A stretch of 64,000 nt of DNA from a virus. The notes below the pieces were generated by a model. The model was given only the letters and a program-made list of their open reading frames with translations, was not told the origin of the DNA and searched no databases. Both the position numbers and the translations under genes were made by a program. Positions 35,780-64,000 of the stretch are shown one piece after another (positions within the stretch are counted from its first letter, which is position 1; the number at the start of each line of letters is the position of its first letter). Where the stretch lies: positions 1-64,000 of IMG/VR virus record IMGVR_UViG_3300043395_002615; one strand, 5' to 3'.

Positions 35780-36291
35780 GATTTACTCGCAATAAAAAGA
35801 TCCATAGAACGATTAAGTTCAATATCAAAATTATATAATCTTGACAAATTGTGAATATCTGCCATAGACGGATATCCCTCTTCTGAGCCAAACAGTCTTA
35901 AATCATCAACGATGACAATATGTGACTGATAAGACTTAAAAATAGTTATCAGTTCTCTTACTATAGGGGTTTCGGAAGGAGGCATAAGACCATCAGATCG
36001 ATTCACATTATGTGCATCAAGAAACCATACAGCAGGCTCATGGATATGAAACTCAAATAAATCAATCCAATCACTAGAATCACCATGAATTAATTTAATA
36101 TTATTAGTGTTCCAAAATCTTTCAATACAAGAACGATAAAGATCTTCCATAAATTCAATAGAAATTACCTGCTTAAAATTTTGAGAAGCCCAAAAAGTTG
36201 TCTCACCAACAGCAGTCCCAGTCTCAACAAAAACATCTCTACCATCTTTGACAGATAATACTATATCATAAAATTCTTCTGGATTATTCAT
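35776..36291 (-). CDS. SAM-dependent methyltransferase-like protein (171 aa)
   Basis: Rossmann pattern: VFVETGTAVGETT (motif I-like, residues about 20-32), VISIEFMEDLY (acidic residue binding the ribose), IKLIHGDSSDW (motif II/III) and VWFLDAHN. It resembles the small class I methyltransferases found in sugar clusters. The fused stop/start overlaps on both sides show one operon. Substrate unknown, likely a sugar hydroxyl. Confidence 0.65.
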   Translation of the reverse strand: MNNPEEFYDIVLSVKDGRDVFVETGTAVGETTFWASQNFKQVISIEFMEDLYRSCIERFWNTNNIKLIHGDSSDWIDLFEFHIHEPAVWFLDAHNVNRSDGLMPPSETPIVRELITIFKSYQSHIVIVDDLRLFGSEEGYPSMADIHNLSRLYNFDIELNRSMDLFIASKS

Positions 36292-37034
36292 AGCGGATCT
36301 TTCGCTTTCAAAGTTTTCAAAATGTAAGAATGAGTTCTATCAATCTCTGGAGATTGCTTTCTCCAATCTGAAACAGGGTTGACTGTGTTATATACATATA
36401 AAGGAATATCTATATATTTGTATCTTCCACCAGCAAGTTCAAGACAAGGAATCATTACAGCAGTATCACCAGCACACTTAAACCAAGAACCATCTGGCCA
36501 AGTAAAATCAGACTCATCTAAATTTTTGAAAAGCAAATACTTAACTGTTCTAAGATGATTAAAAAGAATCCCATGTTTATAAGCAGACTTTCTATAGGAG
36601 TTCGCCAAAACAACTTCTCTTGGATAAGGAGCTGGTTGAGGGCAGGTTTTTGAATATGGCTCTGTTACATAATTTCCATAAGTCATCAAGTAATTACCAG
36701 AACTATAAACCGCTTCCAGCCTTTTTAGAACATTTCTATTTATAAGCCAATCGTCACCATCAACCCAAACAATAACATCATCATCTTCGGGCTCTAGCTT
36801 TGAGATTGCTTCTACTTGAGAATATAAAGCCCCTTTATTATTTTTATGAAGGATGCTTAACCAGCCATGCTCTTCACAAAAAGACCTTATAAAAGGCCAC
36901 TGGTTTCTATCAGTAGAAGCATCATCAACAACACATACATTATAATTCGTATATGACTGATCAGCGATAGAAGCCAGCGTCTTAGGAAGCCAATCCATAG
37001 AATTATAACTTGCTACAACTATCTGAAACTTCAT
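36288..37034 (-). CDS. GT2-family glycosyltransferase (248 aa)
   Basis: Classical GT-A N-terminus: FQIVVASYNSMDWLPKTLAS, CVVDDASTD (nucleotide-sugar binding Asp pair), and VWVDGDDWLI (DXD-like metal site near residue 95). The C-terminal half has the usual aromatic acceptor region. Cytoplasmic, no membrane segments. Donor not determinable from sequence. Confidence 0.8.
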   Translation of the reverse strand: MKFQIVVASYNSMDWLPKTLASIADQSYTNYNVCVVDDASTDRNQWPFIRSFCEEHGWLSILHKNNKGALYSQVEAISKLEPEDDDVIVWVDGDDWLINRNVLKRLEAVYSSGNYLMTYGNYVTEPYSKTCPQPAPYPREVVLANSYRKSAYKHGILFNHLRTVKYLLFKNLDESDFTWPDGSWFKCAGDTAVMIPCLELAGGRYKYIDIPLYVYNTVNPVSDWRKQSPEIDRTHSYILKTLKAKDPL

Positions 37035-37675
37035 TAGTCAATTCTCTTTTTTCCATGAAAAATTCCGCCATAAATATGATTAGGATATTTATGTGGAATA
37101 ATTGTAACTTCAAAAAAGGCTCCAAGATATCTAACCCAATCACCCCATCTTGGATCTGGACCATGAAACTCTCCAGTAATTCTTTCAACTTTCATCAAAG
37201 ACTCTGGAGAAGCATTCAAAATAATATCTACCTCAGCGCCTTCAACATCAATCTTTAGAATATCGATAACTGAAAAAGATTCCGTAAGTTCATCAAAAGA
37301 AATTGACTCTACAGCAATAGAGTTTTCCCCTGACTGCACAGCAGTTCCACCGCAATCAGCAACGATACTCACTCCATTAGAGTCAGACCAAACTGCCTTA
37401 TTTATCAAGTTGATATTAGAAATATGTCCACAGTTTTTTTCTAAGACAGAAAAGTTGTCTGGCTCAGGCTCAACAGAAGTAACAGAACAGTTAGGAAACT
37501 TTCTAACAATTCTCGAAGAGAACGCACCAATATTTGCACCAATATCTAAAACAATAGAAACATCATTCATAGTTTCAATTTCATAAACATCATGCAAAAA
37601 GATTTCATTTAAAACAAATTCATCTGAAGTTTCTGGCCTATAATAAAGATCGCTTCTCTCATCAAGTTCTAACAT
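37034..37675 (-). CDS. FkbM-family methyltransferase (213 aa)
   Basis: Start ATG 37675 (MLELDERSDL) has GGGGAG nine bases upstream; it overlaps the end of the upstream FkbM gene. FkbM hallmarks: VLDIGANIGAFSSRI (SAM-binding loop), VTSVEPEPDNF, then LKIDVEGAEVDIIL. FkbM enzymes O-methylate sugars or polyketides. The place between glycosyltransferases suggests methyl capping of a virion glycan. Confidence 0.8.
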   Translation of the reverse strand: MLELDERSDLYYRPETSDEFVLNEIFLHDVYEIETMNDVSIVLDIGANIGAFSSRIVRKFPNCSVTSVEPEPDNFSVLEKNCGHISNINLINKAVWSDSNGVSIVADCGGTAVQSGENSIAVESISFDELTESFSVIDILKIDVEGAEVDIILNASPESLMKVERITGEFHGPDPRWGDWVRYLGAFFEVTIIPHKYPNHIYGGIFHGKKRID

Positions 37676-38261
37676 AAAAAGCATCTCCCCATCCAAACGG
37701 AGTCATTTCTGTAAGAACACGATCAAAATCTTTTAAGAAGTCATCCAGATCAGAAATCAAACAACAACCCTCATAGAGTTCATTCTCATTAACTTCTGTG
37801 TAAATGTAATCAACATTATCAAGCAAAGAACCCATACCCTTTAGTGCAAGAAGTTCTGCCCCCTGAATATCTAGGTTCAGAAAGTTGAACTCTTTTTCGA
37901 TTCCAAGGTTTTCAATCTTATACATAGTTACAGTTCTAGAAGAAACATATTCAACTTCTGGGTGAACCTCAGCGTGAGTTCCCAATTCAAGAATAGAACT
38001 TGACTGTCCATTATTGGCTTCGTGGAATGTAACCTCTTTACCAGTCTCGTCCCCGACGACAGCACAAATAACAGTATGAGAAGTTGGTACGATTTTTCTG
38101 ATCTTGTCAGCCCTTCTTGGATCTGCCTCAACCCAAACCACATCACTGACCTTATTGTGCTGGTAAATATCTACTTCTTCAGCAAGGTGACCTCCAACAT
38201 GGAGAACGCCAGTGACTGGAGTATCAAAGAATCTTGACAAATCCTGCCAATCAATCAACAT
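37662..38261 (-). CDS. FkbM-family methyltransferase (199 aa)
   Basis: LHVGGHLAEEVDIY (SAM loop), VVWVEADPRRADK, and FLNLDIQGAELLALKG, the FkbM counterpart of D-V/I-E/Q-G-A-E. Tandem with another FkbM gene but clearly diverged, so the two probably methylate different positions. The C-terminus ends GWGDAFYVRT, common in phage and cyanobacterial members. Confidence 0.8.
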   Translation of the reverse strand: MLIDWQDLSRFFDTPVTGVLHVGGHLAEEVDIYQHNKVSDVVWVEADPRRADKIRKIVPTSHTVICAVVGDETGKEVTFHEANNGQSSSILELGTHAEVHPEVEYVSSRTVTMYKIENLGIEKEFNFLNLDIQGAELLALKGMGSLLDNVDYIYTEVNENELYEGCCLISDLDDFLKDFDRVLTEMTPFGWGDAFYVRT

Positions 38262-39057
38262 TTTTTTCAGTCCAATCTGAAGGAATCATCCTTCTCCAAG
38301 GGATATGCCTAACTGCAGGATCTGTGCCAAACCAGCGGGATGGGTAGAAACCTTTTTTGCTTTCAGAAAGAAATGCTCCCCACCAAGAAAAAGTTGAGTT
38401 AGCAATTATGTGCTGCTTACACATAGCCATGCTGAATAGATCAAGATAGTCAGAGGGTTCGCCCAATCTATCCGCAACCTCAACTGGTCTTGGAGTTCCT
38501 TTAAAGAAAATAACTTTACCAGAATCAACTAGATTCGAAGTAAACTCATCTGTCTTATAATTAAATATTACTTGCTTTATTGAATCAGAAAAAACATAAA
38601 ATACTGTTTCTGGATCGGACGAAAGAGCATCCTGCATTGCAGATGAATAATATTGCATTGTTGGAATTGGAAAATGGTTTGGATGATTTAGATAATCTCC
38701 AAGACGATGATGAATAGAACAACCGTGAGACTTCATTGACTCAGCGTTGTCTCCAACATATTCAAGCGTATCATTGAGTGCCCTATCCGAAGGTTGGAAA
38801 ATTGACCAGATGTAAGAATTAATCTGCTGCCAATAGTGTAGTTCTTGGTAATACTCAAATCCACCATCAATAGAATCATCTGAAGCAGTTGCAAAAAGAG
38901 AATCTGGAACTGAGAAGAACGGTCGATATTCCCAACTTGGAACAACAACACCATTACCACCGTTGCGATCAGCCTCTCCCAATGTCCAAGCAATCTGCCA
39001 CAACTGATTACCAAGTCTTCCAGCTAAACCAAGATTTTTGAAACTAAATTCTCTCAT
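38251..39057 (-). CDS. GT11 alpha-1,2-fucosyltransferase-like enzyme (268 aa)
   Basis: GT11 motifs: GRLGNQLWQIAW near the N-terminus, HHRLGDYL (motif I, GDP-fucose binding), YVFSDS, and CKQHIIANSTFSWWGAF (motif II/III). ATG 39057 (MREFSFKNLGLAGR) gives the usual family start; ATG 39069 is an alternative overlapping the upstream gene. GT11 enzymes use GDP-L-fucose. Because the cluster encodes a GDP-mannose 3,5-epimerase but no fucose synthesis gene is visible, GDP-L-galactose is a plausible alternative donor (inference). Confidence 0.85.
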   Translation of the reverse strand: MREFSFKNLGLAGRLGNQLWQIAWTLGEADRNGGNGVVVPSWEYRPFFSVPDSLFATASDDSIDGGFEYYQELHYWQQINSYIWSIFQPSDRALNDTLEYVGDNAESMKSHGCSIHHRLGDYLNHPNHFPIPTMQYYSSAMQDALSSDPETVFYVFSDSIKQVIFNYKTDEFTSNLVDSGKVIFFKGTPRPVEVADRLGEPSDYLDLFSMAMCKQHIIANSTFSWWGAFLSESKKGFYPSRWFGTDPAVRHIPWRRMIPSDWTEKNVD

Positions 39058-39706
39058 CAGACCAACCATATCTTAATGCATAATCTTTATTAAAAAGATT
39101 CCTATTTCTTATCTCATCTGCAGTATTAAAATCTGAATCACCTCTGGGATGCCATAAGTGGCATACGTGCGATCCACATCTCAAATGCTTACCAATTGTA
39201 TTATCTAGTTTTAATCTGAAGGCTACGTCTTCCCAGCCCCAACCCCTAAATCTTTCATCATAAAAACCAGCATCATTATACATATCTCTAGTTAATACTA
39301 ACGCACCAGCCCAAGAAAGTATTTTAAAATCAAACTCTAAATTGTCTTCATCTTCACAAATTGACAAATCTTTTGATATAAATATTTTCTCAGTAAAGTC
39401 TTTTGTTAAATTATAATAATTCTGGTATGGTATTACCCAAGTGTTTTTATCTTTTACAAGCTGTATAGCATCGAGAATTGCGTCCATGCTCACCCAAGTA
39501 TCAGCATCAAGAATAACAAGAAACTCTCCTTTGGCCTGAAGGAAGGCGTTGTTGCGGGCTCTTGATCTGTTCATGGACTGCTCATAGTCGTAACCAACGA
39601 CTAACTCGCAATCATTAGATGATTTAACATAATCTTTGATTAGGTTAAAAGACTGCAGTCGATATTTATCTTTTGTGTCATTCCATGGAATTATAAAAGA
39701 AATCAT
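39044..39706 (-). CDS. GT-A glycosyltransferase, galactosyltransferase-like (220 aa)
   Basis: SFIIPWNDTKDKYRLQSF start, NRSRARNNAFLQAKGEFLVILDADTW (the LDADTW part is the DXD site), and a C-terminal ERFRGWGWEDVAFRLKLD stretch typical of the beta-1,4-galactosyltransferase C-terminal domain. Ends by overlapping the GT11 gene. Acts in the cytosol on an unknown acceptor. Confidence 0.8.
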   Translation of the reverse strand: MISFIIPWNDTKDKYRLQSFNLIKDYVKSSNDCELVVGYDYEQSMNRSRARNNAFLQAKGEFLVILDADTWVSMDAILDAIQLVKDKNTWVIPYQNYYNLTKDFTEKIFISKDLSICEDEDNLEFDFKILSWAGALVLTRDMYNDAGFYDERFRGWGWEDVAFRLKLDNTIGKHLRCGSHVCHLWHPRGDSDFNTADEIRNRNLFNKDYALRYGWSDERI

Positions 39707-39709
39707 GTT

Positions 39710-40336
39710 TTAATCCAAATAAACGTTTTTTATAGTTCTTGAAAAAGGCTTATATTCTGAAACTATCTGTGAATATACCTTTGAATGTAAAGAATGATCT
39801 GTATTTCTACTACCTTCACGAACACCAATGCAATAAATAGCTTTTTCAACTACTTTAATATTTGAATTAGCATTACATATAAGATTAAGAAAAAGTTCCC
39901 AATCTTCTAAAATTGGATACTCTTTGAAACCACCGACTTTTATAAAGTCATATCTAGAAACCATCGATCCAATAACACAACTATTAGAAGTGAAAATGTC
40001 TCTGTTCGGAATAACAGATGGAGCTGGATCAGCTTCTCCAGATTCGTAGAAACCCATAGTCATTGGCTTAAAAATTATTGGACCATGAGAAACGTCTAAT
40101 GCGTTATGCATTGCAATCAAATAATCTTCATGCAAAAAATCATCAGCATCTAAGAAAACAATAAAGTCAGCATTAGACATTTTTGCTCCACGATTCCTTG
40201 CCTTAGCTAAAGAATCTGAGTGGACAGAAATGACATTATTAAGACCTTCAAGAGTTGACATCGAATGACAAAGATCTGAGTTCTTGTCCTCCCAGTCTTT
40301 CGAACCAAATGTTCCAACAACAATATCAATCAACAT
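39710..40336 (-). CDS. GT2-family glycosyltransferase (208 aa)
   Basis: VVGTFGSKDWEDKNSD N-terminus, SLAKARNRGAKMSNADFIVFLDADD with a DXD-like LDADD, and FKEYPILEDWELFLNL in the C-terminal catalytic region (ED-W motif). Short for the family but with the core intact. The 3' end is followed by a three-base gap to the next glycosyltransferase. Confidence 0.8.
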   Translation of the reverse strand: MLIDIVVGTFGSKDWEDKNSDLCHSMSTLEGLNNVISVHSDSLAKARNRGAKMSNADFIVFLDADDFLHEDYLIAMHNALDVSHGPIIFKPMTMGFYESGEADPAPSVIPNRDIFTSNSCVIGSMVSRYDFIKVGGFKEYPILEDWELFLNLICNANSNIKVVEKAIYCIGVREGSRNTDHSLHSKVYSQIVSEYKPFSRTIKNVYLD

Positions 40337-41036
40337 TTAAACCAACAACATTCGGATACTTTTCATACTTGCCATCAGAAAGTATGGATTTTATATGTGA
40401 AATGCTATGACCAGGTCTAGAAATATATCTGTTATATTTCTCTAAACGATCAGACTCTTTAGCATACCCAAAATGCAACATCTTAATATCATACTGATTT
40501 GCTGGATTGCCCCTAGCATAAAGAGGCTCAGAACCGCAGCCCATAGAAGCAGCCGGCCAAGAAGCGTTTCCCTGGAACCTAAAAAATCTAGGAGAACAGA
40601 TGCTATCCCAATAAGGATCTACCCTTACTGATAGCGAGTCGCCATCGACACCAAAAACCTCAAGAAAATGAATCTTCACAGAATCACTACCCAGTTCAGT
40701 GCACTTAAGAAGTGAATCGTGCAGCGGGAGACCAGAGTATAAAAACTCGTCTGCATCAAATGCGAGAACCCAGTCCTCTTCAGAAGGACTCAGCAAATCT
40801 TCAAAGTATGTCCATGCCTGCGATCTAAACATGCTTTCGTTTTCAAGAAAGGATGGAGATGAATCAGGTCTGACCGCAACGGTTGCAAAGTCAGAAGCAA
40901 TATTCACAGAATCATCAGTAGATCTATCATCAAAAATAAAAATTTCATCAAGAAAAGAAGAAGACCATTCAAGACATTCTTTCAGATATCTATCCGACTC
41001 ATTCTTCATAACCATGAGTCCATAAATTTTAGTCAT
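40326..41036 (-). CDS. GT2-family glycosyltransferase, beta-glucosyltransferase-like (236 aa)
   Basis: Begins GLMVMKNESDRYLKECLEW then IFIFDDRSTDDS and VLAFDADEFLY, the pattern of SunS/WaaE-like GT2 transferases. The MVMKNE box and the DADEF metal site are clear. The C-terminal MLHFGYAKESDRLEKYNRY box also occurs in this subgroup. Overlaps the next and previous genes by a few bases. Confidence 0.82.
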   Translation of the reverse strand: MTKIYGLMVMKNESDRYLKECLEWSSSFLDEIFIFDDRSTDDSVNIASDFATVAVRPDSSPSFLENESMFRSQAWTYFEDLLSPSEEDWVLAFDADEFLYSGLPLHDSLLKCTELGSDSVKIHFLEVFGVDGDSLSVRVDPYWDSICSPRFFRFQGNASWPAASMGCGSEPLYARGNPANQYDIKMLHFGYAKESDRLEKYNRYISRPGHSISHIKSILSDGKYEKYPNVVGLNVD

Positions 41037-41802
41037 GATCTATACCATGGGCTTCACAAAATTCAACAAAAATCTTCTTTGCCTCACCCATCCTTGAATC
41101 AACTTCACCGCCAACAGGGGACGACTTATGCCATTCATGAATCATCTCAGCATTACCAAGGTACCAAACCTCTTTACCATGAGCCTGTGCGTGATAGGCG
41201 CAACCGGTTTCCTCATAGTAATGCTGCGTTGGAAGAAAGGCCCCAATTACATCTGGAAACATTGATGCATAAATGCTACAATTTGTTAATTCAGACCAAA
41301 GATCTCTTTTGATAAAAAATGCTGACCCAGAAACTGTAACAGCCTTACGATCAAAGCGTAGCTCTTGGAGTCTTGGTGATCTCCAACCATTATGCTGTGG
41401 CTTTTCTAGCGTTCCAAAGATACCACCATGAGTTGCTCTAAAAGTTGAGTCGTACTGCAATGGGCCAACAATACCAACATCTGGATTTGAGTCCAAAAAA
41501 TCTACACAGTAGTCAACACATTCATTATCAACAAATCTTGTGTCAGAATTAAAGAAGGCTAGAACATCTGCATCAGAGTTAAATCCAGCATAGTTGCAAG
41601 CCAAAGCATATCCAAGATTCCAGTCTGATCTAACCGACCAAGCATCTGACGGAATTTTTAAGTCATCAAAACCATCTTCAGAATCTACATCAATAATAGT
41701 TAGATGGCTTTCTGTTTTTGGTTTAAACTGCTCATAAGAATCAATGAAAGCCTGAAGTAGATCATAAGTTCTATAATTTATGACAGAAATTTCTACTTTC
41801 AA
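41029..41802 (-). CDS. GT2-family glycosyltransferase, rhamnosyltransferase-like (257 aa)
   Basis: TTG at 41802 overlaps the preceding stop as TTGA and has AAAGG eight bases upstream; a GTG three codons earlier is an alternative. Contains ISVINYRTYDLLQAFI, a NLGYALACNYAG loop, and VLAFFNSDTRF with the NSD-type metal site, then ETGCAYHAQAHGKEVWYLG. These match dTDP-rhamnosyl/GT2 enzymes of O-antigen clusters. Donor unknown. Confidence 0.8.
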   Translation of the reverse strand: MKVEISVINYRTYDLLQAFIDSYEQFKPKTESHLTIIDVDSEDGFDDLKIPSDAWSVRSDWNLGYALACNYAGFNSDADVLAFFNSDTRFVDNECVDYCVDFLDSNPDVGIVGPLQYDSTFRATHGGIFGTLEKPQHNGWRSPRLQELRFDRKAVTVSGSAFFIKRDLWSELTNCSIYASMFPDVIGAFLPTQHYYEETGCAYHAQAHGKEVWYLGNAEMIHEWHKSSPVGGEVDSRMGEAKKIFVEFCEAHGIDHD

Positions 41803-42506
41803 AATCCACACCTTTTATCAATCACAGTAATCATATTTTTACTCATAACATGCTTATTGCTAACTTTTCCGTCCCAAATGAGTTTTCCACCAGCGGCCTT
41901 AACGTTTGCGGACCATCCAAGATCTTCACCGTTCTTGTGCCAAGAATAGTCAATATTATAAGCAAATGGTTTCATCAATTTTGCAGCCATAATAATATCA
42001 ACAGTTGCGATATCGTCAGTATCTCTTCTATAAAATCTTACCATGTCGCCATCTGACCAATACCCCATGCTTGGATGAACCCTTGTTGTTTCTGACATAT
42101 AGCACTTCATTCCAACAGCACAAGCATCGGTATGCACACTTAAAGCAGACAATGCAGATGTGATTGCAGTTTCAGCCAAGAGGATATCTGAATCTAGACT
42201 CAAGAAAAGATCTGGAGCATACTCACGAACACCAGCAAGAAGTTCGTTTCTTAGATATGTCATATGAGAATATCTAGAGTCATTCCATCTTCTTTTATCT
42301 TCTCTTAGGTCTTCATCAATAACTCTTACTATAGAGTTTTCTAGAGAAGATAGATCGTTTAGATCCTTCTTGTTCTTATTTCCTGCAACAAAAATAAACT
42401 GAAAATCGGAGATTCCAGCATTAAAGCAGGCAAGATTTACATGATCAATCCACTTGTCAAGAATCCAACCCCTATCACTATATGGGCATCCAATTAAAAG
42501 TCTCAA
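41799..42506 (-). CDS. GT-A-like glycosyltransferase (235 aa)
   Basis: TTG at 42506 overlaps the upstream stop as TTGA; a TTG nine codons upstream (42533) is also open. LFLSLDSDILL supplies a DSD metal site; MTYLRNELLAGVREYAPD precedes it as in Anp1/GT-A enzymes, and YSWHKNGEDLGWSANVK follows as a catalytic ED-type region. First glycosyltransferase of the cluster in transcription order. Confidence 0.7.
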   Translation of the reverse strand: MRLLIGCPYSDRGWILDKWIDHVNLACFNAGISDFQFIFVAGNKNKKDLNDLSSLENSIVRVIDEDLREDKRRWNDSRYSHMTYLRNELLAGVREYAPDLFLSLDSDILLAETAITSALSALSVHTDACAVGMKCYMSETTRVHPSMGYWSDGDMVRFYRRDTDDIATVDIIMAAKLMKPFAYNIDYSWHKNGEDLGWSANVKAAGGKLIWDGKVSNKHVMSKNMITVIDKRCGF

Positions 42507-42727
42507 ATCTTTACCAATCTGTGAGAAGGGCAAACACGCTTTTCGTCCCCTGACTTTGGGACATATTCTTCACCGTATACAAGTGAAACTTTCTCAACCT
42601 GAACTGTCGCAAACTTTCCAGTAAAATTAACTATTTTACCAAGATAAAAAGTTTGAGATGTATTAGTATTCGCAATTGCAATAACTTTAGAACCAAGATC
42701 AAGAATATTACCAAAAGCATCAAGCAT
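42503..42727 (-). CDS. Small SH3-like hypothetical protein (74 aa)
   Basis: MLDAFGNILDLGSKVIAIANT; five predicted beta strands with a KIVNFTGKFATVQVE centre, like a KOW/SH3-type barrel. It overlaps the RuvC-like gene upstream and the glycosyltransferase downstream. It may bind nucleic acid; no specific family recognised. Confidence 0.6.
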   Translation of the reverse strand: MLDAFGNILDLGSKVIAIANTNTSQTFYLGKIVNFTGKFATVQVEKVSLVYGEEYVPKSGDEKRVCPSHRLVKI

Positions 42728-51025: not shown

Positions 51026-51427
51026 ATGAAGAATCAAGATTTCTGGGGATCAGAATTTATAGATGATGGAAACTTCGGGGCAATCAAAGAAGTATTTTCA
51101 TCACTGAAGTATTTGCCATTGGATTTAGTTCTTTATGTTGCTGACCAATCATATCTTGGCCAAATTTGGCTTAGAGATAAAGAGCATATAGAAAATCTTA
51201 TTTTATCTATACAAGCAAATGGGTTTGAAAACCCTGGGCTCATTGACTTCGACAACACTTCTGTAAGGCTCACAGACGGAAACCACAGATTAGTTGCGGC
51301 GCAACACTTGGGTCTGCAATACTTCCCCATCGAACTTCGACAAGTCGATGAAATTAAAGTAAGATCAGTAAGACTATATAACTTCTTCCAAAAAATATTG
51401 GAGTCACAATGGCAGGACCAAAACTAA
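51026..51427 (+). CDS. ParB-like nuclease-domain protein (133 aa)
   Basis: The core RDKEHIENLILSIQANGFENP then VRLTDGNHRLVAAQHLG matches the ParB/sulfiredoxin fold; DGNHR is the DGxHR signature of the ParB/DndB-type CTPase/nuclease domain. Stand-alone domain with no HTH, unlike the fusion at 62289. No ribosome site lies before the ATG, so it may be leaderless. Function unknown; related domains act in DNA modification, nicking or partition. Confidence 0.75.
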   Translation: MKNQDFWGSEFIDDGNFGAIKEVFSSLKYLPLDLVLYVADQSYLGQIWLRDKEHIENLILSIQANGFENPGLIDFDNTSVRLTDGNHRLVAAQHLGLQYFPIELRQVDEIKVRSVRLYNFFQKILESQWQDQN

Positions 51428-56721: not shown

Positions 56722-58467
56722 TCAATCCATCCAGTTGTCTGGAAGCATATCCTGTGCGTCAAGTGCCTTAGCACGCTTGATAATATGCTTCTTAGCTGCA
56801 GGCTTATCCTTGGCTCTACCAAAAGCCTGAATAGCATTCTTAAGATCACCAATAGTTACAATCGGGTAAGAGCCATCTGGAAGAGCAAGACCTTCCTTTG
56901 CAAGTTTCTCACGCTCTTCGGGAGTAAAATCTCTAGCAGATTCTCTCTCACGCTTCTGCTGAGCCTCATAACTGCGAACAATTCTGTTAGTCCAAGACCA
57001 AGCAGCATCGCCACCCCAGAGCAGCCAAGCAATCCAACCATTACTAGTCTTATCATTCAGATTGTCACCAGCATGACGGGGGAAGTAGCGATTGATATGT
57101 CGAACCTTCTCAATGCCAATGGTCCCACCAGCAGCAAGCGTTCGTGCAGTATTTTCGCCAACATCAGTACCACCACGGCCAAACTTCTTACGAAGATCAA
57201 GGCCGCGCTGAGCATTCTTCTTTACACGGTCTGGAATTGGATAGGTTGCAGCCTCATCCTTCTTTTTGTCATCTTCGTTATTGTCATAGCTGCTATAGGT
57301 GTCATCTTCGATATCGTCAGGAGAATTTTCCTGATTATCAAGTTCACCAATTTTGGTAACCTCATCAGACATGCGACCAGTCATAAATTCAGTCTCTTGG
57401 TCGTCAATCCAAATTCTAATAAGAACAGCAGGATTCTCCATAGAAGCAGGAGAATAAAATTTTGATCCAGGAACACCGAAGTACCCATCATACATAACAT
57501 GCTCAACTGAACCAACATGCTCATGCGTGCCCTGTGGTGGCATATCGTTATGGAACATGGAGTCATTCTCCATCATAAACTTTACAATATCGCCTTCTTT
57601 AAAAGAATCCATTTGAGCTACTCCTGCTTTCTTTTCACGTTCACGACGCTTTTCATGTTGAGTTGGTGTTTCAAGATTTTTTACATCTTCTTTACCTGGC
57701 TTATATCCGCTCTTTGGATCAGTTGCAGCATAAAGACTTTTAAGTTGATCATTAGCAGATTTCTGAGTTGCATGACAACCATGGACAATCCCAGACTTCT
57801 CGCCAATTACTCCATAGGGTTTGCTAACTGGACAGGATGGATGCTCTTTAACTACCCTAAAGTAAAGTCTTTTTTCTTGTGCCTCTTCGCTAGCTTTGCT
57901 TGAAAGAGGGTGATCTCTTGGAAGAAGATCCTGATCGAACGGTTTTCTTGGAGCCTTACCATTTTTAAGCATCTTAAGAAATGCTCTAACCCTTCCATAG
58001 CCCCACTGCTCTGCGCTAACCACATTTGGTCGAACGCTAGAAGGATTGGTCTTATAAGCTCCAACGCCCCTGTTAAAAACTTTAGTAAGAGTAGTCATAG
58101 TAACTTTCCTGCCCTCTGGAGCAGTCTTGTTATACTCTGACATTATACCTCTAAGCGTGGAATTTCTATCAGCAGACTCTGGCTCAATAGGTGTCTTGGA
58201 TACACGAAGATCCGAAACAGGCTTAGCAACAACCCTGTCGGTCTTTGACTTAGGGTTGCCATCCTCATCAACAGCCCAAACCTCTATAGTTGCAACAGGA
58301 TTATCCTTAGTTGCCTCAAAAGATTCATTAGTACCATCAATCTTTACCATGCCAGAAGTTTTGATACTCTTAACAACCCCATGGGCATAGGTAGTGGCCT
58401 GAGGTGGCTTAGGCACCGCATACATCACATGATCGCCAACAGATACGTTTTTTGCTGAAAATTCCAT
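56722..58467 (-). CDS. DUF5824/DUF6582-like multidomain protein (581 aa)
   Basis: Modular: an N-terminal SH3-like part (about 1-90), a segment STLRGIMSEYNKTAPEGRK ... GYGRVRAFLKMLKNG (about 100-175) like DUF5824, a cysteine-containing CPVSKPYGVIGEK ... GCHATQ segment (about 205-235), an acidic linker, and a C-terminal LPDGSYPIVTIGDLKNAIQA segment like DUF6582. Similar modules are found in actinophage structural or prohead-associated proteins. No catalytic residues assigned. Probably a virion or DNA-processing protein. Confidence 0.65.
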   Translation of the reverse strand: MEFSAKNVSVGDHVMYAVPKPPQATTYAHGVVKSIKTSGMVKIDGTNESFEATKDNPVATIEVWAVDEDGNPKSKTDRVVAKPVSDLRVSKTPIEPESADRNSTLRGIMSEYNKTAPEGRKVTMTTLTKVFNRGVGAYKTNPSSVRPNVVSAEQWGYGRVRAFLKMLKNGKAPRKPFDQDLLPRDHPLSSKASEEAQEKRLYFRVVKEHPSCPVSKPYGVIGEKSGIVHGCHATQKSANDQLKSLYAATDPKSGYKPGKEDVKNLETPTQHEKRREREKKAGVAQMDSFKEGDIVKFMMENDSMFHNDMPPQGTHEHVGSVEHVMYDGYFGVPGSKFYSPASMENPAVLIRIWIDDQETEFMTGRMSDEVTKIGELDNQENSPDDIEDDTYSSYDNNEDDKKKDEAATYPIPDRVKKNAQRGLDLRKKFGRGGTDVGENTARTLAAGGTIGIEKVRHINRYFPRHAGDNLNDKTSNGWIAWLLWGGDAAWSWTNRIVRSYEAQQKRERESARDFTPEEREKLAKEGLALPDGSYPIVTIGDLKNAIQAFGRAKDKPAAKKHIIKRAKALDAQDMLPDNWMD

Positions 58468-58484
58468 AAAGACTTATCGGGAAA

Positions 58485-59735
58485 TCAGGTTTCTATTAAA
58501 TGGGACACTAATTCAGCAATCTGGCTTCTTTCAGATTTTTCAAGATTGATATGAGCAAAGATATCTTCGTTTTTAAGAGAAGATATTACTGACATAACAC
58601 CATCATATTTTCCAACTCTTAAATTATCTCGCTGAGCAACATCATGAGTCATCACCACTTTGCTGTTCTTACCCATCCTAGAAAGAGCAGTCAATAGAAC
58701 CATCTTCTCAAGATTCTGCGCTTCATCGATAATGACAAACGAATCGCTAAGCGTTCTACCTCTGATATGTGTAAGGGGAAGAACTTCAAGAAGTTCCTCT
58801 TCGATAATTTCTTCAATAACGTTAGGTCCACAGAAAACTTCCAAAGCATCAAATACGGCTGCTGCCCAAGGGGACATTTTTTCTTCGGCAGTTCCAGGAA
58901 GAAAACCAAGATCCTGTCCGCCAACAGCATAAAGCGGTCTGAAAATAATTACTTTCTTGTGAACTCTTTTTTCTACAACAGACTCAAGACCTGCAGCGAT
59001 AGCAAGAAGAGATTTGCCAGTGCCGGCGTTTCCGCCAATAGAAACAATCTGAACTGAGTCATCAGTTAAGAAATCCAAGGCAATGCGCTGTTCTGCGCTT
59101 CGACCACGAACATCGAAAACATTTCGATCTTTAACATGGACAAGATGACCATTCTTGTATCTTGCCAAAGCAGAACTAGTACCGCTTGTTGCAATAACAC
59201 CAGTATTTGTGGGAAGTTTTAGTTCGAAAGAAGTTTTACCAGTAGAATATAAATTCTCAATTGAGTCTTGATCAACTTCAATCTTTTCGATACCAGACCA
59301 GACTTCGCTAAACTGATCAGAGAAGTAGTCATCCGCATTAAGACCAATCACTGAAGCCTTGAGTCGAAGCGGCAAATCTTTCGTAAGAATAGTTACATCT
59401 TCTTTTTTAGAAAGATTATATGCAACAGCAAGAATTTTATTGTCGTTCAAATTTTCTTTGAAAGCATTTGGTAGATCCGTGTTATCGATATTGTTAATTT
59501 CGATTCTTACACTTCCACCATTTTCATTTACAATCGGATCAATAAGGGAATCATTTTTTCTGATTAACTCAAGTTCTCTCAAACACTGTCTGGCAGAAAA
59601 GCCAAGTTCTGGGTGGTTACGCTTTTCCTCAAGTTCGGTAAGAACTATCAGCGGAATAACTATGTGCTTATCTTGAAGCCTTTCCATAGCTTTGGGATCG
59701 GACAGAAAAACTGATGTGTCAATAACATAGATCAT
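58485..59735 (-). CDS. phoH: PIN-domain PhoH-like ATPase (416 aa)
   Basis: N-terminal PIN nuclease domain with acids at Asp6 (VIDTSVFL) and Glu34 (LTELEEKR). C-terminal PhoH ATPase with Walker A GNAGTGKS (Lys241) and Walker B VIIDEAQ (Asp337, Glu338). This is the PhoH2 (PIN-PhoH) arrangement, known in actinobacteria as RNA helicase/RNase. Phage-encoded PhoH is common but its role is unsettled. Divergent from the tRNA-Tyr/QueF block. Confidence 0.9.
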   Translation of the reverse strand: MIYVIDTSVFLSDPKAMERLQDKHIVIPLIVLTELEEKRNHPELGFSARQCLRELELIRKNDSLIDPIVNENGGSVRIEINNIDNTDLPNAFKENLNDNKILAVAYNLSKKEDVTILTKDLPLRLKASVIGLNADDYFSDQFSEVWSGIEKIEVDQDSIENLYSTGKTSFELKLPTNTGVIATSGTSSALARYKNGHLVHVKDRNVFDVRGRSAEQRIALDFLTDDSVQIVSIGGNAGTGKSLLAIAAGLESVVEKRVHKKVIIFRPLYAVGGQDLGFLPGTAEEKMSPWAAAVFDALEVFCGPNVIEEIIEEELLEVLPLTHIRGRTLSDSFVIIDEAQNLEKMVLLTALSRMGKNSKVVMTHDVAQRDNLRVGKYDGVMSVISSLKNEDIFAHINLEKSERSQIAELVSHLIET

Positions 59736-59882
59736 TGAATCCCCAGATTAAATTGTAAATTTAAAATTCTAACGGAGACAATCTGTGATTTTGAATCAAG
59801 TCGATGTGCTAATGTGTCGGCACGGAGGCCGATGCGCTACGAGGTAGCGGCAAACATCAAATTTCTTGGGAAGCTGATGTTC
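59736..59882. other. Intergenic leader of tRNA-Tyr with three consecutive hairpins
   Basis: Hairpins: TCGGC/GCCGA (59817-59821 / 59828-59832), CGCTAC/GTAGCG (59835-59840 / 59844-59849, three-base loop) and ACATCA/TGATGT (59854-59859 / 59875-59880). GATGT at 59803-59807 can alternatively pair with ACATC at 59854-59858. An unusually dense structure for 75 bases; may be a processing leader or small RNA. AT-rich 5' part could hold divergent promoters, but I cannot fix a -10/-35 pair. Confidence 0.4.
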
Positions 59883-59965
59883 GGGAGTGCTGCAGAGATG
59901 GCGATCTGCACCAGACTGTAAATCTGGCGTCGTTGACTTAGGGGGTTCGAATCCCTCCACTCCCA
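59883..59965 (+). tRNA. tRNA-Tyr(GTA)
   Basis: 83 bases, type II tRNA. Acceptor GGGAGTG/CACTCCC (59883-59889 / 59958-59964), discriminator A, no encoded CCA. Anticodon stem CCAGA/TCTGG, loop CTGTAAA, anticodon GTA at 59918-59920. Long variable arm as for bacterial Tyr. TTCGAAT T-loop. U33-G34-U35 makes it a standard substrate for queuosine-type transglycosylases. Confidence 0.93.
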
Positions 59966-59967
59966 CT

Positions 59968-60105
59968 ATGATAGTATTATTTTCTATTATTTTTGCTATT
60001 GGAGCTTGGATAGCTCTTTGGGCTTCAGATGAATCAAAAGATGGCCTAATGATACTTGGCATAAGCATCTGTTGTATTACTATTTTTTTCGCATCATTAA
60101 TTTAG
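59968..60105 (+). CDS. Possible small membrane protein (45 aa)
   Basis: Open frame MIVLFSIIFAIGAWIALWA then DESKDG and MILGISICCITIFFASLI, two hydrophobic helices joined by a polar turn. It begins three bases after the tRNA-Tyr 3' end with no ribosome site; it could be translated from the processed tRNA transcript. Spacing to QueF (seven bases) favours it being real, but this is weak. Confidence 0.4.
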   Translation: MIVLFSIIFAIGAWIALWASDESKDGLMILGISICCITIFFASLI

Positions 60106-60112
60106 GATTCCA

Positions 60113-60568
60113 ATGGACGAATTAACGCTTCTTGGCTCAGAAGTTGAATATAACTTTGATGAACCAAATAAGATTCACTTAGAAAAATTTGAGTATAGCC
60201 AGTATAAATTTCATCAATTAATTTCTTTTAAGACAGATGAATTTACTTCACTATGTCCAATGACTGGACAGCCAGATTTTGCGTCACTAGATATATGCTA
60301 TATTGCAGATAAGTTTGCCATAGAAAGCAAATCTTTAAAGTTATACATATTTAGATATAGAAATCATGGAGCCTTCCATGAGGATTGCATTAATAAAATA
60401 ACTCAAGATATTATAGATGTAATTGATCCTAAATATATTAGAGTTATAGGTGATTTTTCTAAGCGTGGTGGAATTTCTATAAAACCTATAAGCGAATACT
60501 GTAGAGATGGCTTTAAAAAGCCGGTTGACCTAATAAATCAATACGATAATTTTAATTTCAAAAATTAA
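60113..60568 (+). CDS. queF: NADPH-dependent preQ0 reductase QueF (151 aa)
   Basis: QueF reduces the nitrile 7-cyano-7-deazaguanine (preQ0) to the amine preQ1. Motifs: FTSLCPMTGQPDF with catalytic Cys48 and Asp55, the QueF signature ESKSLKLY at 71-78, RNHGAFHED (His89, Glu90) and RGGISIKP. These match the short Bacillus-type enzyme, including the catalytic Cys and Asp, so it should be a true reductase rather than the archaeal amidinotransferase form. AGGA is five bases upstream of ATG. It lies between tRNA-Tyr and tRNA-Asn and upstream of a preQ0 transporter. Confidence 0.95.
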   Translation: MDELTLLGSEVEYNFDEPNKIHLEKFEYSQYKFHQLISFKTDEFTSLCPMTGQPDFASLDICYIADKFAIESKSLKLYIFRYRNHGAFHEDCINKITQDIIDVIDPKYIRVIGDFSKRGGISIKPISEYCRDGFKKPVDLINQYDNFNFKN

Positions 60569-60576
60569 AAAGTTAT

Positions 60577-60649
60577 TCCCAGATAGCTCAATTGGCAGAG
60601 CAGTTGACTGTTAATCAGCGGGTTGTAGGTTCGAGTCCTACTCTGGGAG
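60577..60649 (+). tRNA. tRNA-Asn(GTT)
   Basis: 73 bases. Acceptor TCCCAGA/TCTGGGA (60577-60583 / 60642-60648), discriminator G, no encoded CCA. Anticodon stem GTTGA/TCAGC, loop CTGTTAA, anticodon GTT at 60610-60612. T-loop TTCGAGT. Like the tRNA-Tyr, it carries U33-G34-U35. Eight bases after the QueF stop and likely cotranscribed. Confidence 0.93.
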
Positions 60650-61228
60650 CTATTGGTTGGCTTCAAAAAAATCTTTGGCAAAGCCGGCAGGCGTCATGGA
60701 TCTAAACTCTTTGGTCTGCTCAGATGCGCCACCAACCTTCCAAATAACACGACCTTGAGTGTTTTCTACTTCGTGGCGTTCTGGGGTATTGAAGTCTCCC
60801 CATAGCCAAGTCATCTTTTGCCATGGATCGCCATGATGATACGGATGAAACTTGTATTGCACTGGTCCAAGTTCGGGGATAAGTTTATGAATCCTGCTCA
60901 TAGGATTTTCTACTACCCAAAATTTTAGTGTATCTACAGATTTGTAGAAATTTACTATTTCCATAACTTTCAATACCAAATCAACTGCCTCTGCAGTCCT
61001 ACCGTCAGCGTCTTTCTCCTTAAAGAAACGTGAACCTGAAAGAGAGAAGTGGGTGCATGGTGGTGCGGCAAGAATGCCGTAGACTTCTGGAAACTCTTGA
61101 TAGTCAAAATCAAAAATATCAGAACCAAGTTTGATATCGATTTGATGAACTTCATAGCCTGAATCTTTATATGGTTTACTCCAATTTCCAGAGTAATCAA
61201 ATAAAGATAATATAACTTTATTAGACAT
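60650..61228 (-). CDS. Short cytosine-C5-methyltransferase-like protein (192 aa)
   Basis: ATG 61228 (MSNKVILSLFDYSG) chosen; an upstream extension of 66 codons is low in coding character. Motif I LFDYSGNWSKP, motif IV APPCTHFS with Cys58, motif VI VVENP (Glu107-Asn108), and RSMTPAGFAKDF like motif X. There is no room for a normal target-recognition domain, so it is either a minimal phage enzyme or acts on a small substrate or modified base. It sits in the 7-deazaguanine block but on the opposite strand; its stop abuts tRNA-Asn. Confidence 0.8.
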   Translation of the reverse strand: MSNKVILSLFDYSGNWSKPYKDSGYEVHQIDIKLGSDIFDFDYQEFPEVYGILAAPPCTHFSLSGSRFFKEKDADGRTAEAVDLVLKVMEIVNFYKSVDTLKFWVVENPMSRIHKLIPELGPVQYKFHPYHHGDPWQKMTWLWGDFNTPERHEVENTQGRVIWKVGGASEQTKEFRSMTPAGFAKDFFEANQ

Positions 61229-61285
61229 AATATATACCAAATTATAGTTAATATAAGTTGTTTTAACTTTATATTGCAACCCGAT

Positions 61286-61314
61286 TTGACACCGGCTAAA
61301 ACCAATGATACAGT
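61286..61314 (+). promoter_or_regulatory. Sigma-70-type promoter giving a leaderless mRNA
   Basis: TTGACA (61286-61291), 17-base spacer, TACAGT (61309-61314). The expected start of transcription, seven bases on, is at the A of the ATG at 61321. No ribosome site is present before that ATG. Leaderless transcripts are frequent in Actinobacteria. Drives the gene at 61321 and probably the transporter at 61578. Confidence 0.75.
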
Positions 61315-61320
61315 CGTTAG

Positions 61321-61530
61321 ATGGACAATTTATTATACTTAGATTATTTTGGCGTTGCTGACGAAATAGAAGGCTTTGGAATTCCAGAAGATGAACTTCT
61401 AACACTTGAAGATTTTGAAAAACCATTTATTGAAAAAGTTTTAGTATGGGCAAAAAGAAATAATGCACCATGGCCTCCAAGTTTTCAGTGGGCCGAAGAC
61501 CACTGGGACGTTCGTGACAAAATGTTATAA
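61321..61530 (+). CDS. Small acidic hypothetical protein (69 aa)
   Basis: ATG coincides with the predicted transcription start. MDNLLYLDYFGVADEIEGFG, then EDELLTLEDFEKPFIEKVLVWAK and NNAPWPPSFQWAEDHWDV. Acidic and helical with several Trp. No family recognised. It may be a regulator or partner of the following preQ0 transporter. Confidence 0.6.
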   Translation: MDNLLYLDYFGVADEIEGFGIPEDELLTLEDFEKPFIEKVLVWAKRNNAPWPPSFQWAEDHWDVRDKML

Positions 61531-61577
61531 ACGGAAAAGACCGCTGATAGAATTTCGACTCTAACGAAAGGCTAATA

Positions 61578-62237
61578 ATGCTAACTAAAGTTAAACCAAC
61601 TGCAGCGATTATTGTTGTAGCAGTATATACCGCACTTCAGTTGATCTCTAATATTGCAAGTACCAAAATTGGTATGATAGGAACTTTTGCAATCGATATG
61701 GGAACGTTCCTATATCCTCTAACATTTACCATGAGAGATGTTGCACATAAGATTCTTGGCAAGGCGCATGTTAGAATCATGATTCTAGTTGCTGCACTTC
61801 TAAATCTTGCTATGGTTCTTTACCTATGGTTCTGCACACTTTTCCCTGCAGATCCTTCATGGCCACTAAACGAAGAGTTCAGTGCAGTTCTAGGACCTGT
61901 ATCAAGAATTGTAGTTGCTTCGATCCTAGCCCAGTTAATTGCAGAACTTGCTGACACTGAAGCATACCATTGGTTTGTGACAAAGATCACTAAAAGATTC
62001 CAGTGGGCACGAGTTTTGGTATCAAACGCAATTTCGGTTCCACTAGACAGCGTGGTGTTTGTTCTGATTGCTTTTGCCCCGATCACACTGTTCGGTTCGC
62101 AGGGTTTGGAATGGTCAATCGTCTGGTCAATTTTCTGGACCAACATCATTTTCAAGGGAATTGTAACACTAGCAAGTATGCCAATGATTTATGTAACACC
62201 AGACAGGGACTGGGATAGCGATAAATCTGATGCCTAA
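61578..62237 (+). CDS. yhhQ: YhhQ/VUT-family preQ0 (7-deazaguanine precursor) transporter (219 aa)
   Basis: Six hydrophobic segments and the YhhQ pattern: LQLISNIASTKIG, then GTFLYPLTFTMRDVAHKILG at about 46-65 (the gtilfPltfilsDv box) and SVPLDSVVFVLIAF. The acidic ELADTEAY in the fourth segment is also conserved. Family members import preQ0 and sometimes preQ1 or queuine. Placing this gene in a phage lets the infected cell scavenge the precursor rather than make it from GTP; I see no FolE, QueD, QueE or QueC here. Confidence 0.9.
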   Translation: MLTKVKPTAAIIVVAVYTALQLISNIASTKIGMIGTFAIDMGTFLYPLTFTMRDVAHKILGKAHVRIMILVAALLNLAMVLYLWFCTLFPADPSWPLNEEFSAVLGPVSRIVVASILAQLIAELADTEAYHWFVTKITKRFQWARVLVSNAISVPLDSVVFVLIAFAPITLFGSQGLEWSIVWSIFWTNIIFKGIVTLASMPMIYVTPDRDWDSDKSDA

Positions 62238-62257
62238 AAATTAGGAACCACGTATCT

Positions 62258-62288
62258 GGCCGGGGCGTAAAAACCCCGGCCTTTTACG
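62258..62288 (+). terminator. Rho-independent terminator after the transporter gene
   Basis: GGCCGGGG (62258-62265) pairs with CCCCGGCC (62274-62281), eight-base loop, followed by TTTTACG. It lies 20 bases after the transporter stop and just before the 3' end of the convergent ParB-TGT gene. Confidence 0.9.
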
Positions 62289-63611
62289 TTAGTGCCTCTT
62301 TAATCCTCTGAAATAATTTCTTTGAACATCCCTATCAAGATTTTCATAACCATTCATTCTTGCAATATCAAACATAATATTTCCGAAAGAAATTGCACCA
62401 CATATGAACCTAACATTTTCTGCAACGATTCCCTCATCAGTTGATCTGCAGTCAAAACCTTCAAATCTATAATCTAAATTATAGAAAGAAGTTCTGATGC
62501 CATCACTGGTATAGAAACTTCCAACTGCAGCAATCCTGTTCATTGAATTGTTATCAAGTGAAACAACATCGCTACCCATCATCTGCAGATATCTACGCTG
62601 AACACCCCATGGTCCACCTAGTAGGTGAACTTTTCTTCCTTTAAATTTTTCTGGATCAACCTGTGTCATACCATAACTGGATGGGCAGCTATATCCTAGA
62701 ACGTATTGATCTGGTATGTCAGCGATACAGTCATACTTTGGAATTACGATCACATTTTCAGCGTATTTATTTAACTGTTCTGCCTGTTCCATTACTTCAT
62801 CAAAAGTATGGTATTTGGTATCGTATCCTGCTGTTTCTTCTTCTGTCATTAAATCTATGACCGTACAGTATTTTGGCCTGAATGTTTTAACATTCTTTAA
62901 ATGGTTTTCAAAACTATATTTTTTAAAATCTATATCAATAAATATTTCATCGTACATAGATTCTTTATATACGCCATCTGTCTGGAATCCCATTTTCCAT
63001 CCAGCATCATGTGCTGCGTGACGTAATCTATCTGAAATACTTGAACAGTATATGATGTCAATATCAACTGCTAGTTTAGCTTTCAATACTTCACCATTAT
63101 ATTTTTTGTTTAGAATTTGATCATAGACATATCTAGAAGTTTTAACATCCTTGTCTTCTATGATATATACTTTGCCATCATCACCAATTCTTTTTCTTGA
63201 ATCGATATTCAGTTCTTTTCTGACACTAGCAACTGTCATATCTGATACGCCTAATTCTTTTGCAATAGAATTATTTGATCGTTCAGGGTTATCTGATAGT
63301 ACGTCAGAAATAATGGCACGTTTCTGTGCAGAATTTAGGTGGCGTCTGGCTACGTTCATAGAACGTGCATAGTTTCTTTTTTCTTCTTCGGTCATTCCTT
63401 TTCTGATGATAGTCGGGCATTCTATTCCCAGGTCCTGTGCAATTGACCATCTATGGTGACCATCTAGGATATTACCATCTTCATCAATTTCTACAGGATG
63501 AATAATACCATGTTCTTTAATAGAATCATACAATACTTCATATTCATGTTTATTTAATGATGGAAGTAACTGATACTTATATTCTGACCTATGAAAAACA
63601 GGAACTTTCAT
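62289..63611 (-). CDS. ParB domain fused to TGT/DpdA-like 7-deazaguanine transglycosylase (440 aa)
   Basis: ATG 63611 (MKVPVFHRSEY); a TTG three codons earlier is open. Residues 1-75: ParB-like domain with DGHHRW at 50-55. Residues 112-133: helix-turn-helix (NNSIAKELGVSDMTVASVRK). Residues about 185-375: TGT-like barrel with FIDIDF (224-229), YCTVIDLMTEEE (248-259), VIVIPKYDCI and YVLGYSCPSSYG (287-314), HLLGGPWG (329-336) and SDVVSLDNNS (347-356). Asp353 is the candidate nucleophile, by analogy with the FDS/DC Asp of TGT. Such DpdA-like enzymes exchange guanine in DNA for preQ0 or preQ1; the ParB/HTH half would supply DNA binding. Confidence 0.8.
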   Translation of the reverse strand: MKVPVFHRSEYKYQLLPSLNKHEYEVLYDSIKEHGIIHPVEIDEDGNILDGHHRWSIAQDLGIECPTIIRKGMTEEEKRNYARSMNVARRHLNSAQKRAIISDVLSDNPERSNNSIAKELGVSDMTVASVRKELNIDSRKRIGDDGKVYIIEDKDVKTSRYVYDQILNKKYNGEVLKAKLAVDIDIIYCSSISDRLRHAAHDAGWKMGFQTDGVYKESMYDEIFIDIDFKKYSFENHLKNVKTFRPKYCTVIDLMTEEETAGYDTKYHTFDEVMEQAEQLNKYAENVIVIPKYDCIADIPDQYVLGYSCPSSYGMTQVDPEKFKGRKVHLLGGPWGVQRRYLQMMGSDVVSLDNNSMNRIAAVGSFYTSDGIRTSFYNLDYRFEGFDCRSTDEGIVAENVRFICGAISFGNIMFDIARMNGYENLDRDVQRNYFRGLKRH

Positions 63612-63807
63612 AACCAACAACTTTCACACGCGAAAAACTAAACACAATCTTACACTAATAATATTTTTTTAAACCCAAATACGTCAAATATAGAAAACGT
63701 CATAAACAGCCCTAGAATGCGATCTAACAGCATCCAAACAAAACATATACAACTATACCACAACACATCTAGAAACCCGTTAAAACGCATTACAGCGCCC
63801 TACAGGA
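63612..63807. other. Intergenic region upstream of the ParB-TGT gene
   Basis: Gene-free. Contains the minus-strand promoter at 63658-63687 and two copies of TGACGT about 16 bases apart on that strand (near 63682 and 63698), which could be an operator. The plus strand is strikingly poor in G and rich in A and C. Confidence 0.45.
63658..63687 (-). promoter_or_regulatory. Sigma-70-type promoter for the ParB-TGT gene
   Basis: On the minus strand TTGACG (63687-63682), 18-base spacer, TATTAT (63663-63658). Transcription would begin about 40 bases before the ATG at 63611. A second -10-like TAAGAT lies slightly downstream. A TGACGT repeat overlaps and precedes the -35. Confidence 0.6.
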
Positions 63808-64000
63808 CTATTTCTGTTTCAAACGTACCATATCAATAACATTAACCAACGGAATATTAATTCCATTAGCCACAGAACCATCACCATCATCACTAGTAAC
63901 CAACGTCAAATACCCAGCAATAGGATTAGGTTTAACCAAAAACCCAACAGACTGAACACTAGTCCCAGCAACATCCAAACATTTCAAATCAACCCAATCA
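63808..64000 (-). CDS. Unknown protein, partial (N-terminus outside window)
   Basis: Open frame from the right edge to TAG at 63810-63808 encodes about 63 C-terminal residues including LVKPNPIAGYLTLVTSDDG and NIPLVNVIDMVRLKQK. Leu codons are almost all TTG and Gly mostly GGG/GGT, unlike the CTT/CTA-rich ParB-TGT gene beside it. Function not recognisable. The codon shift may mark a separately acquired gene. Confidence 0.5.
   Translation of the reverse strand, partial: DWVDLKCLDVAGTSVQSVGFLVKPNPIAGYLTLVTSDDGDGSVANGINIPLVNVIDMVRLKQK

Follow-up and report, generated by a model that had tools for sequence, protein, structure and literature searches.

Near the end of the 64,000-nucleotide stretch analyzed here (the window; positions 1 to 64,000 of IMG/VR virus record IMGVR_UViG_3300043395_002615), one gene encodes a protein with a ParB-like N-terminus and a C-terminus resembling tRNA-guanine transglycosylase (TGT), which raises the question of what reaction this protein carries out and on which nucleic acid. 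We consider its product likely to be a DNA-guanine transglycosylase of the phage, equipped with a ParB-helix-turn-helix (HTH) docking module and probably placing preQ1. From the evidence set out below we infer the chemistry, the identity of the base, DNA as the substrate, the docking role of the ParB-HTH module, and a protective effect.

A ParB-HTH module joined to a predicted TGT-like barrel

The open reading frame begins with an ATG at 63611 and ends with a stop codon closing at 62289 (Table 1); an alternative TTG start at 63620, 9 bases upstream of the ATG, would give a product of 443 residues. The plus strand over 62289-63611 was crowded with stops. Comparison with the homologue in relative L008 (82% identical) gave a dN/dS of 0.068 over 440 codons, which identifies this as a real gene and rules out a chance or artefactual reading frame. 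Both halves were constrained, with values of 0.054 for the ParB and HTH part and 0.073 for the TGT-like part. The source record comprises 67,534 bases and holds no other DUF6610 gene. An earlier reading made from the sequence alone had given the correct coordinates and the correct residue numbering (D50-G-H52-H-R54 and SLD(353)NN) but had overlooked that the gene lies on the minus strand.

Table 1 Features of the ParB-HTH-DUF6610 locus in the window
Feature	Position	Strand	Basis
ParB-HTH-DUF6610 (TGT-like) gene	62289..63611	minus	ORF and translation, 440 aa; dN/dS 0.068 vs L008
ParB-like domain, residues ~12-83, D50-G-H-H-R54	63363..63578	minus	PF02195, TIGR00180, PHROG ParB families, Foldseek Spo0J/ParB/Noc
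Helix-turn-helix, residues ~113-134	63210..63275	minus	Weak HTH_24/AsnC/GerE matches; model helices; 54% identical module in vB_MseS-P1
TGT-like TIM barrel, residues ~180-423 (DUF6610 at 200-375)	62343..63074	minus	PF20314 E 2e-41; model pLDDT 86.2, pTM 0.85; Foldseek TGT
Asp226 codon (FIDID), candidate second active-site acid	62934..62936	minus	22/22 invariant; role inferred
Asp353 codon (SLDNN), proposed nucleophile	62553..62555	minus	23/23 invariant; end of barrel strand 8; role inferred
Queuosine-precursor (preQ0/preQ1) transporter, Vut_1/YhhQ/COG1738 type, convergent with main gene	61578..62237	plus	PF02592 E 2.4e-36; TIGR00697 E 1e-24, above cut-off
C5-cytosine-methyltransferase-like gene between QueF and transporter, true start probably internal	60650..61426	minus	PHROG 757 DNA methyltransferase E 1.2e-40; PF00145 under cut-off
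tRNA-Asn (GTT), queuosine-family, beside QueF	60577..60650	plus	ARAGORN; Rfam tRNA 67.8 bits
QueF-type preQ0 nitrile reductase (preQ0 to preQ1)	60113..60568	plus	PF14489 E 5.5e-30; PHROG 5949 E 1.2e-39
tRNA-Tyr (GTA), queuosine-family	59883..59966	plus	ARAGORN; Rfam tRNA 43 bits

The analysis confirmed that a ParB-HTH module and a predicted TGT-like barrel are joined in one protein of 440 residues. At the N-terminus, residues 12-77 matched Pfam ParB_N (E 1.3e-4; 22.4 bits, under the cut-off of 26.3), residues 18-133 matched NCBIfam parB_part (E 2e-9, under its cut-off), and many PHROG ParB families were also matched. The full-length model (pLDDT 76.6) resembled the crystal structures of Spo0J, Noc, and ParB in Foldseek, with Spo0J/ParB/Noc and TGT entries appearing in one match list. 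The NCBIfam, PHROG, and PDB matches place this region in the ParB/Srx superfamily fold with its GxxR box. Weak Pfam matches to HTH domains fell at about residues 103-134, where the model has helices at 94-107, 113-120, and 124-133, and a low-confidence linker separates the HTH from the barrel. The profile matches and the model thus bear out the proposal of a ParB-type DGHHR domain followed by an HTH, whereas the accompanying idea of CTP-dependent clamping found no support. The GERR and ENxQR motifs of ParB have catalytic roles. When the main protein was aligned with Noc, the Noc motifs GERR and ENLQR corresponded to GHHR and MNVAR, so that the canonical CTPase motifs are not present; Arg54 was retained in eight of 16 ParB-bearing relatives, in which the position of His52 is either His or Asn. 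The CTP clamp reading was rejected on these grounds.

The ParB-HTH module shares 54% identity with the one that Mesorhizobium phage vB_MseS-P1 carries on an MT-A70-like protein and 52% with a methyltransferase-fused module in Agrobacterium phage Rivra. These two proteins carry the same N-terminal module but end in a methyltransferase-like domain (annotated as IME4 or methyltransferase) instead of a TGT-like barrel. The ParB regions of the other ParB-DUF6610 proteins were weakly similar to this module, and because it is closer to the MT-A70-like fusions than to these, we conclude that it has been exchanged. A second, short ORF consisting of a ParB domain by itself (133 aa, plus strand, 51026-51427, with a TDGNHR motif; PF02195 E 2.7e-4, under the cut-off) was also seen in the window.

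The C-terminal barrel and its candidate active site

Pfam assigns residues 200-375 to DUF6610, a family of unknown function. The C-terminal domain (residues 176-440) was modeled separately, and the best 50 Foldseek PDB matches of this model were all TGTs (E 5e-5 to 4e-4). In VIA-align, the listed TGT rows had Z scores of 12.8-13.8 over 220-237 residues with rmsd values of 3.4-5.0; the barrel enzyme PdxJ tied with TGT at Z 13.5, over about 180 residues, and pyruvate kinase barrels also fell within the Z range of TGT. Given the uniform Foldseek result and the PdxJ tie, the predicted domain is a TIM barrel that is best read as TGT-like. This agrees with the fold that the sequence-only reading had proposed. 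In a viral structure library, the full-length model matched a phage "ParB/Sulfiredoxin" protein across its whole length (E 2.7e-27), the DUF6610 protein of HCTV-1 (E 6.3e-13), and a phage "queuine tRNA-ribosyltransferase" (E 6.8e-6).

The relationship to characterized families is distant. PF01702, the TGT profile, matched neither the main protein nor any other part of the 67,534-base record, and going by the model the protein is of TGT fold but outside PF01702. Bacterial TGTs typically have a C-terminal CxCxxC...H zinc motif, which was absent from the C-terminal domain when inspected by eye. The barrel fold is shared with Zymomonas mobilis TGT and the archaeal ArcTGT of P. horikoshii (1iq8); however, identity in structural alignments was about 7-15%, and the ParB-HTH module stands where TGT has its tRNA-binding parts. 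The solved DpdA structure (7ui4) was not among the best 50 rows listed in the searches with either model, although it could still match lower. Searching the DUF6610 profile against solved structures gave nothing useful, the matches being two designed TPR proteins (E 0.2). Comparison of the DUF6610 and DpdA1 profiles with hhalign gave a weak match (probability 1.4%; 5 of 300 column shuffles scored as high), in which VHLLGG...SLD is paired with KLHAFG...SCD, the HxxG and SxD motifs being in register. This was too weak to serve as proof of DpdA1 homology from sequence.

A TIM-barrel enzyme that binds DNA but performs a different chemistry, for example on another nucleobase, a sugar, or a phosphate, and that hitch-hikes in preQ0 clusters, would be compatible with the Z scores of the PdxJ and pyruvate kinase barrels, with the weak sequence link to DpdA1, and with the missing PF01702 match. 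We regard this as very unlikely, since the best 50 Foldseek rows contained TGT only and a queuosine-pathway gene accompanies DUF6610 in 21 of 25 virus records (see below).

In TGT, strand 8 of the barrel ends with the nucleophilic Asp. Ser351, Asp353, Asn355, His329, and Gly332-333 were invariant in all 23 aligned sequences, and Asp185, Asp226, and Asp253 in all 22 sequences that cover them. Asp353 ends strand 8 in both the full-length and the C-terminal domain model; with its invariance, this favors the earlier suggestion that Asp353 is the putative nucleophile. That the barrel residues are invariant while the ParB motifs drift suggests, at the level of sequence conservation, that catalysis would reside in the barrel and docking in the ParB domain.

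Queuosine-precursor genes and tRNAs around DUF6610

Both the transporter and QueF lie within 3.5 kb of the main gene. Profile searches found neither QueC nor FolE in the virus record, which fits import of preQ0 followed by its reduction to preQ1. The C5-cytosine-methyltransferase-like gene lies in the same cluster. In relative L008, two C5-cytosine-methyltransferase-like genes were seen by eye (2726-3634, plus; 3628-4218, minus), suggesting a possible double modification of the DNA. PADLOC matched only a methyltransferase model and no DpdB model, and no preQ1 riboswitch was found among the Rfam matches in window positions 58000-64000 (E ≤5) or in 10 loci (gathering threshold). Between the convergent transporter and main gene, a GC-rich hairpin with a stretch of T behind it (62258-62285) looks by eye like a terminator.

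The association was examined across 25 DUF6610 virus records, namely the window's own record, 23 further IMG/VR records, and Mycobacterium phage Funsized; many of these are related and therefore not independent. QueF was found in 16, Vut_1 in 11, and QueC in 12, and at least one of the three in 21 of the 25, so DUF6610 is associated with genes for preQ0/preQ1 synthesis or uptake. None of the three profiles matched in G005, G013, G019, and G023. Of these, G005 and G023 are fragments below 10 kb, and in G013 the gene adjoining DUF6610 is for a QueT transporter, making this the 22nd record with a pathway gene. Among 50,697 phage records, the window's QueF matched 75 and its transporter five, although this background was obtained by tblastn, which is less sensitive than the profiles applied to the 25 records, so the contrast is somewhat overstated.

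A ParB region was present in 16 of the 23 aligned DUF6610 relatives; those without it are haloviruses and a few others, and L029 is truncated. The fusion described in the sequence-only reading is therefore real, but ParB-DUF6610 is a broad family and not a one-off, and the reading had missed the transporter and QueF. The exact ParB-HTH-DUF6610 form was confined to the window lineage (window, L007, and L008). No ParB-transglycosylase fusion was found described in a literature search that covered few subscription papers. As a cellular gene DUF6610 was rejected: it occurred in one of 398 genomes of one phylum, with a phage portal gene nearby. Haloferax volcanii, used as a whole-genome control, also had one DUF6610 match. 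Other arrangements were observed among the relatives. In L021 (5572-7998), a stand-alone DUF6610 overlaps the end of an 808-aa helicase and N6/N4-methyltransferase gene (PF00271, PF01555), which again places DUF6610 together with an enzyme that modifies DNA, and in L026 (7575-8654) the N-terminal region resembles a GNAT acetyltransferase by eye. A Skipping-rope RNA (Rfam RF02924, 60.7 bits) lies beyond the portal gene of the Peptococcaceae-binned phage L031 (13188-13266).

Cui et al. in 2023 reportedly named DpdA4 as a DpdA subfamily specific to archaeal viruses such as HVTV-1. Gp69 of HVTV-1 is a DUF6610-type protein without ParB (tblastn match and alignment), and the DUF6610 proteins of HVTV-1 and HCTV-1 are homologous to the C-terminal domain of the main protein. 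In both, the gene belongs to a preQ0 cluster that contains QueF and, in HCTV-1, also YhhQ (PMC8651126); no annotated preQ0 gene was present within 5 kb of DUF6610 in HJTV-3. DpdA4 is probably the same family as DUF6610, with the main protein as a likely member. The halovirus proteins lack the ParB region, however, and DUF6610 is found here in bacterial phages, in contrast to the reported restriction to archaeal viruses. According to the HVTV-1 report, about 30% of G in the viral DNA is present as dPreQ1, a QueF-like protein is described, and the authors, who did not find a DpdA, proposed that of the host as the inserting enzyme (PMC6884629).

The DpdA1 profile matched one of the 25 DUF6610 records (Funsized), and none of eight DpdA1 phages matched DUF6610, which leaves DUF6610 as the sole candidate found for the insertion enzyme in most records. 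In Funsized, Rinkes, and Knocker, ParB-DUF6610 is accompanied by a separate DpdA-like gene, leaving room for an accessory role or for two enzymes with different sites. DUF6610 might thus be a TGT-fold accessory, a helper of the DpdB kind with no base exchange of its own, which would deliver DNA to a transglycosylase of phage or host or regulate that enzyme. That it neighbors QueF as well as a separate DpdA in these three phages agrees with such a role, as does the host DpdA proposed for HVTV-1. In bacterial Dpd systems, the ATPase activity of the ParB-superfamily protein DpdB is used with DpdA for insertion, though certain clusters may do without DpdB (PMC12839542). We nevertheless judge an accessory to be unlikely, because 24 of the 25 records had no DpdA1 profile match, the window record had no match to PF01702, the acids needed by a TGT active site are invariant, and several relatives are stand-alone DUF6610 proteins without ParB.

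An ordinary TGT placing preQ1 into G34 of the phage tRNA-Tyr and tRNA-Asn, and of host GUN tRNAs, with the ParB-HTH module in a regulatory role, has to be weighed against the tRNA genes. ARAGORN detected just two tRNAs in the window, Tyr-GTA and Asn-GTT, and they flank QueF. Scans of other loci (21 and 20 loci) found in bacterial-type phages only Asn and Tyr (L008, with L006 and L007 repeating those of the window) and Asp-GTC (L014); a tRNA in a halovirus locus was Gln. By eye, all tRNAs of the bacterial-type loci retain U33-G34-U35. These tRNAs, together with TGT being the closest solved fold, speak for action on tRNA. Against it stand the ParB-HTH module, a DNA-side module common to MT-A70-like phage proteins, the dPreQ1 in HVTV-1 DNA, the small number of relatives with a tRNA gene in the loci scanned, and the missing zinc motif of bacterial TGT. 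For these reasons we hold an ordinary tRNA TGT to be quite unlikely, and DNA, which the sequence-only reading had put ahead of tRNA as the putative target, is the better reading, given the module shared with MT-A70-like proteins, the preQ0 neighbors, and HVTV-1. The five tRNAs of the bacterial-type phage loci (window; L008 5843-6345; L014 6426-6497) all have GUN anticodons and lie close to preQ0 genes. They may possibly compensate for drained queuosine, although the tRNA numbers are too small to decide this.

Proposed reaction and related systems

In the DNA-guanine transglycosylase reading that we favor, the barrel would excise guanines at selected positions of the phage DNA by way of a covalent Asp353-deoxyribose intermediate, and a 7-deazaguanine base would be put in their place. 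This base would most likely be preQ1, because the neighboring transporter is predicted to import preQ0/preQ1, QueF to reduce preQ0 to preQ1, and the virus itself lacks QueC and FolE. The ParB-HTH module would anchor the enzyme to DNA and may influence where it acts, and the modified base would probably shield the phage from host restriction enzymes.

The closest parallels combine the same elements differently. Gp1 of Mycobacterium phages Funsized, Rinkes, and Knocker, annotated as a "ParB-like nuclease domain protein" with no recognition of a DUF6610 function, has an annotated ParB-like N-terminus and a DUF6610 C-terminus and is followed by QueF; these phages differ in having QueC, QueD, QueE, and FolE downstream along with the separate DpdA-like gene, and gp1 lacks an HTH of the window type. 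The bacterial Dpd system likewise pairs a TGT homologue with a ParB-superfamily protein to put a 7-deazaguanine into DNA, as described in PMC12839542 and PMC6392294, but does so with two proteins instead of one and with a different TGT-like family, and no restriction genes were seen here. DpdB is a ParB-superfamily ATPase, and no DpdB model in PADLOC matched the main ParB domain. The CRB2 paper suggests that a ParB-like gene near phage DpdA may be a DpdB homologue (PMC6392294). In the DpdA1 phages Bipper (Mycobacterium) and Nicole72 (Microbacterium), a ParB-like gene adjoins DpdA1 and the preQ0 pathway or is separated from them by a single small gene, but the genes are separate and the enzyme belongs to DpdA1 instead of DUF6610.

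A more elaborate form of the DNA reading would make the protein a one-chain, self-targeting enzyme in which the ParB-HTH module does the docking job of DpdB for a DpdA4-like barrel and preQ1 is placed preferentially in regions recognized by the HTH. Exchange of ParB modules with DNA methyltransferase-like proteins would have given rise to such enzymes again and again among bacterial phages, and some phages would bring their own GUN tRNAs (Tyr, Asn, Asp) because the enzyme drains the preQ1 of the cell, offsetting the loss of queuosine from host tRNA. We consider this extended scheme conceivable but rather doubtful.

If the favored DNA-guanine transglycosylase reading is true, DUF6610 would gain a likely role as a DNA base exchanger, one that would reach many phages, mycobacteriophages included, whose proteins are annotated merely as "ParB-like nuclease" or "hypothetical". 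It would also explain heavy dPreQ1 modification of the HVTV-1 type without a DpdA1 gene and would provide a compact system in which one protein writes 7-deazaguanines into DNA. The ParB-HTH module would then serve phage enzymes that modify DNA, the methyltransferase-like ones included, as an exchangeable docking unit, and the queuosine-family tRNAs beside the cluster point to a possible connection, open to testing, of DNA modification in phages with queuosine in host tRNA.

Two further features of the record were observed outside the cluster. A run of glycosyltransferase-like and methyltransferase-like ORFs was seen by eye on the minus strand of the window at 34808-42533. Just past the window, at L006 17001-18000 (about 64535-65534 of the record), the G+C content rises to 0.63 compared with 0.33-0.48 in the flanks, which may mark a foreign segment or a chimeric contig end.
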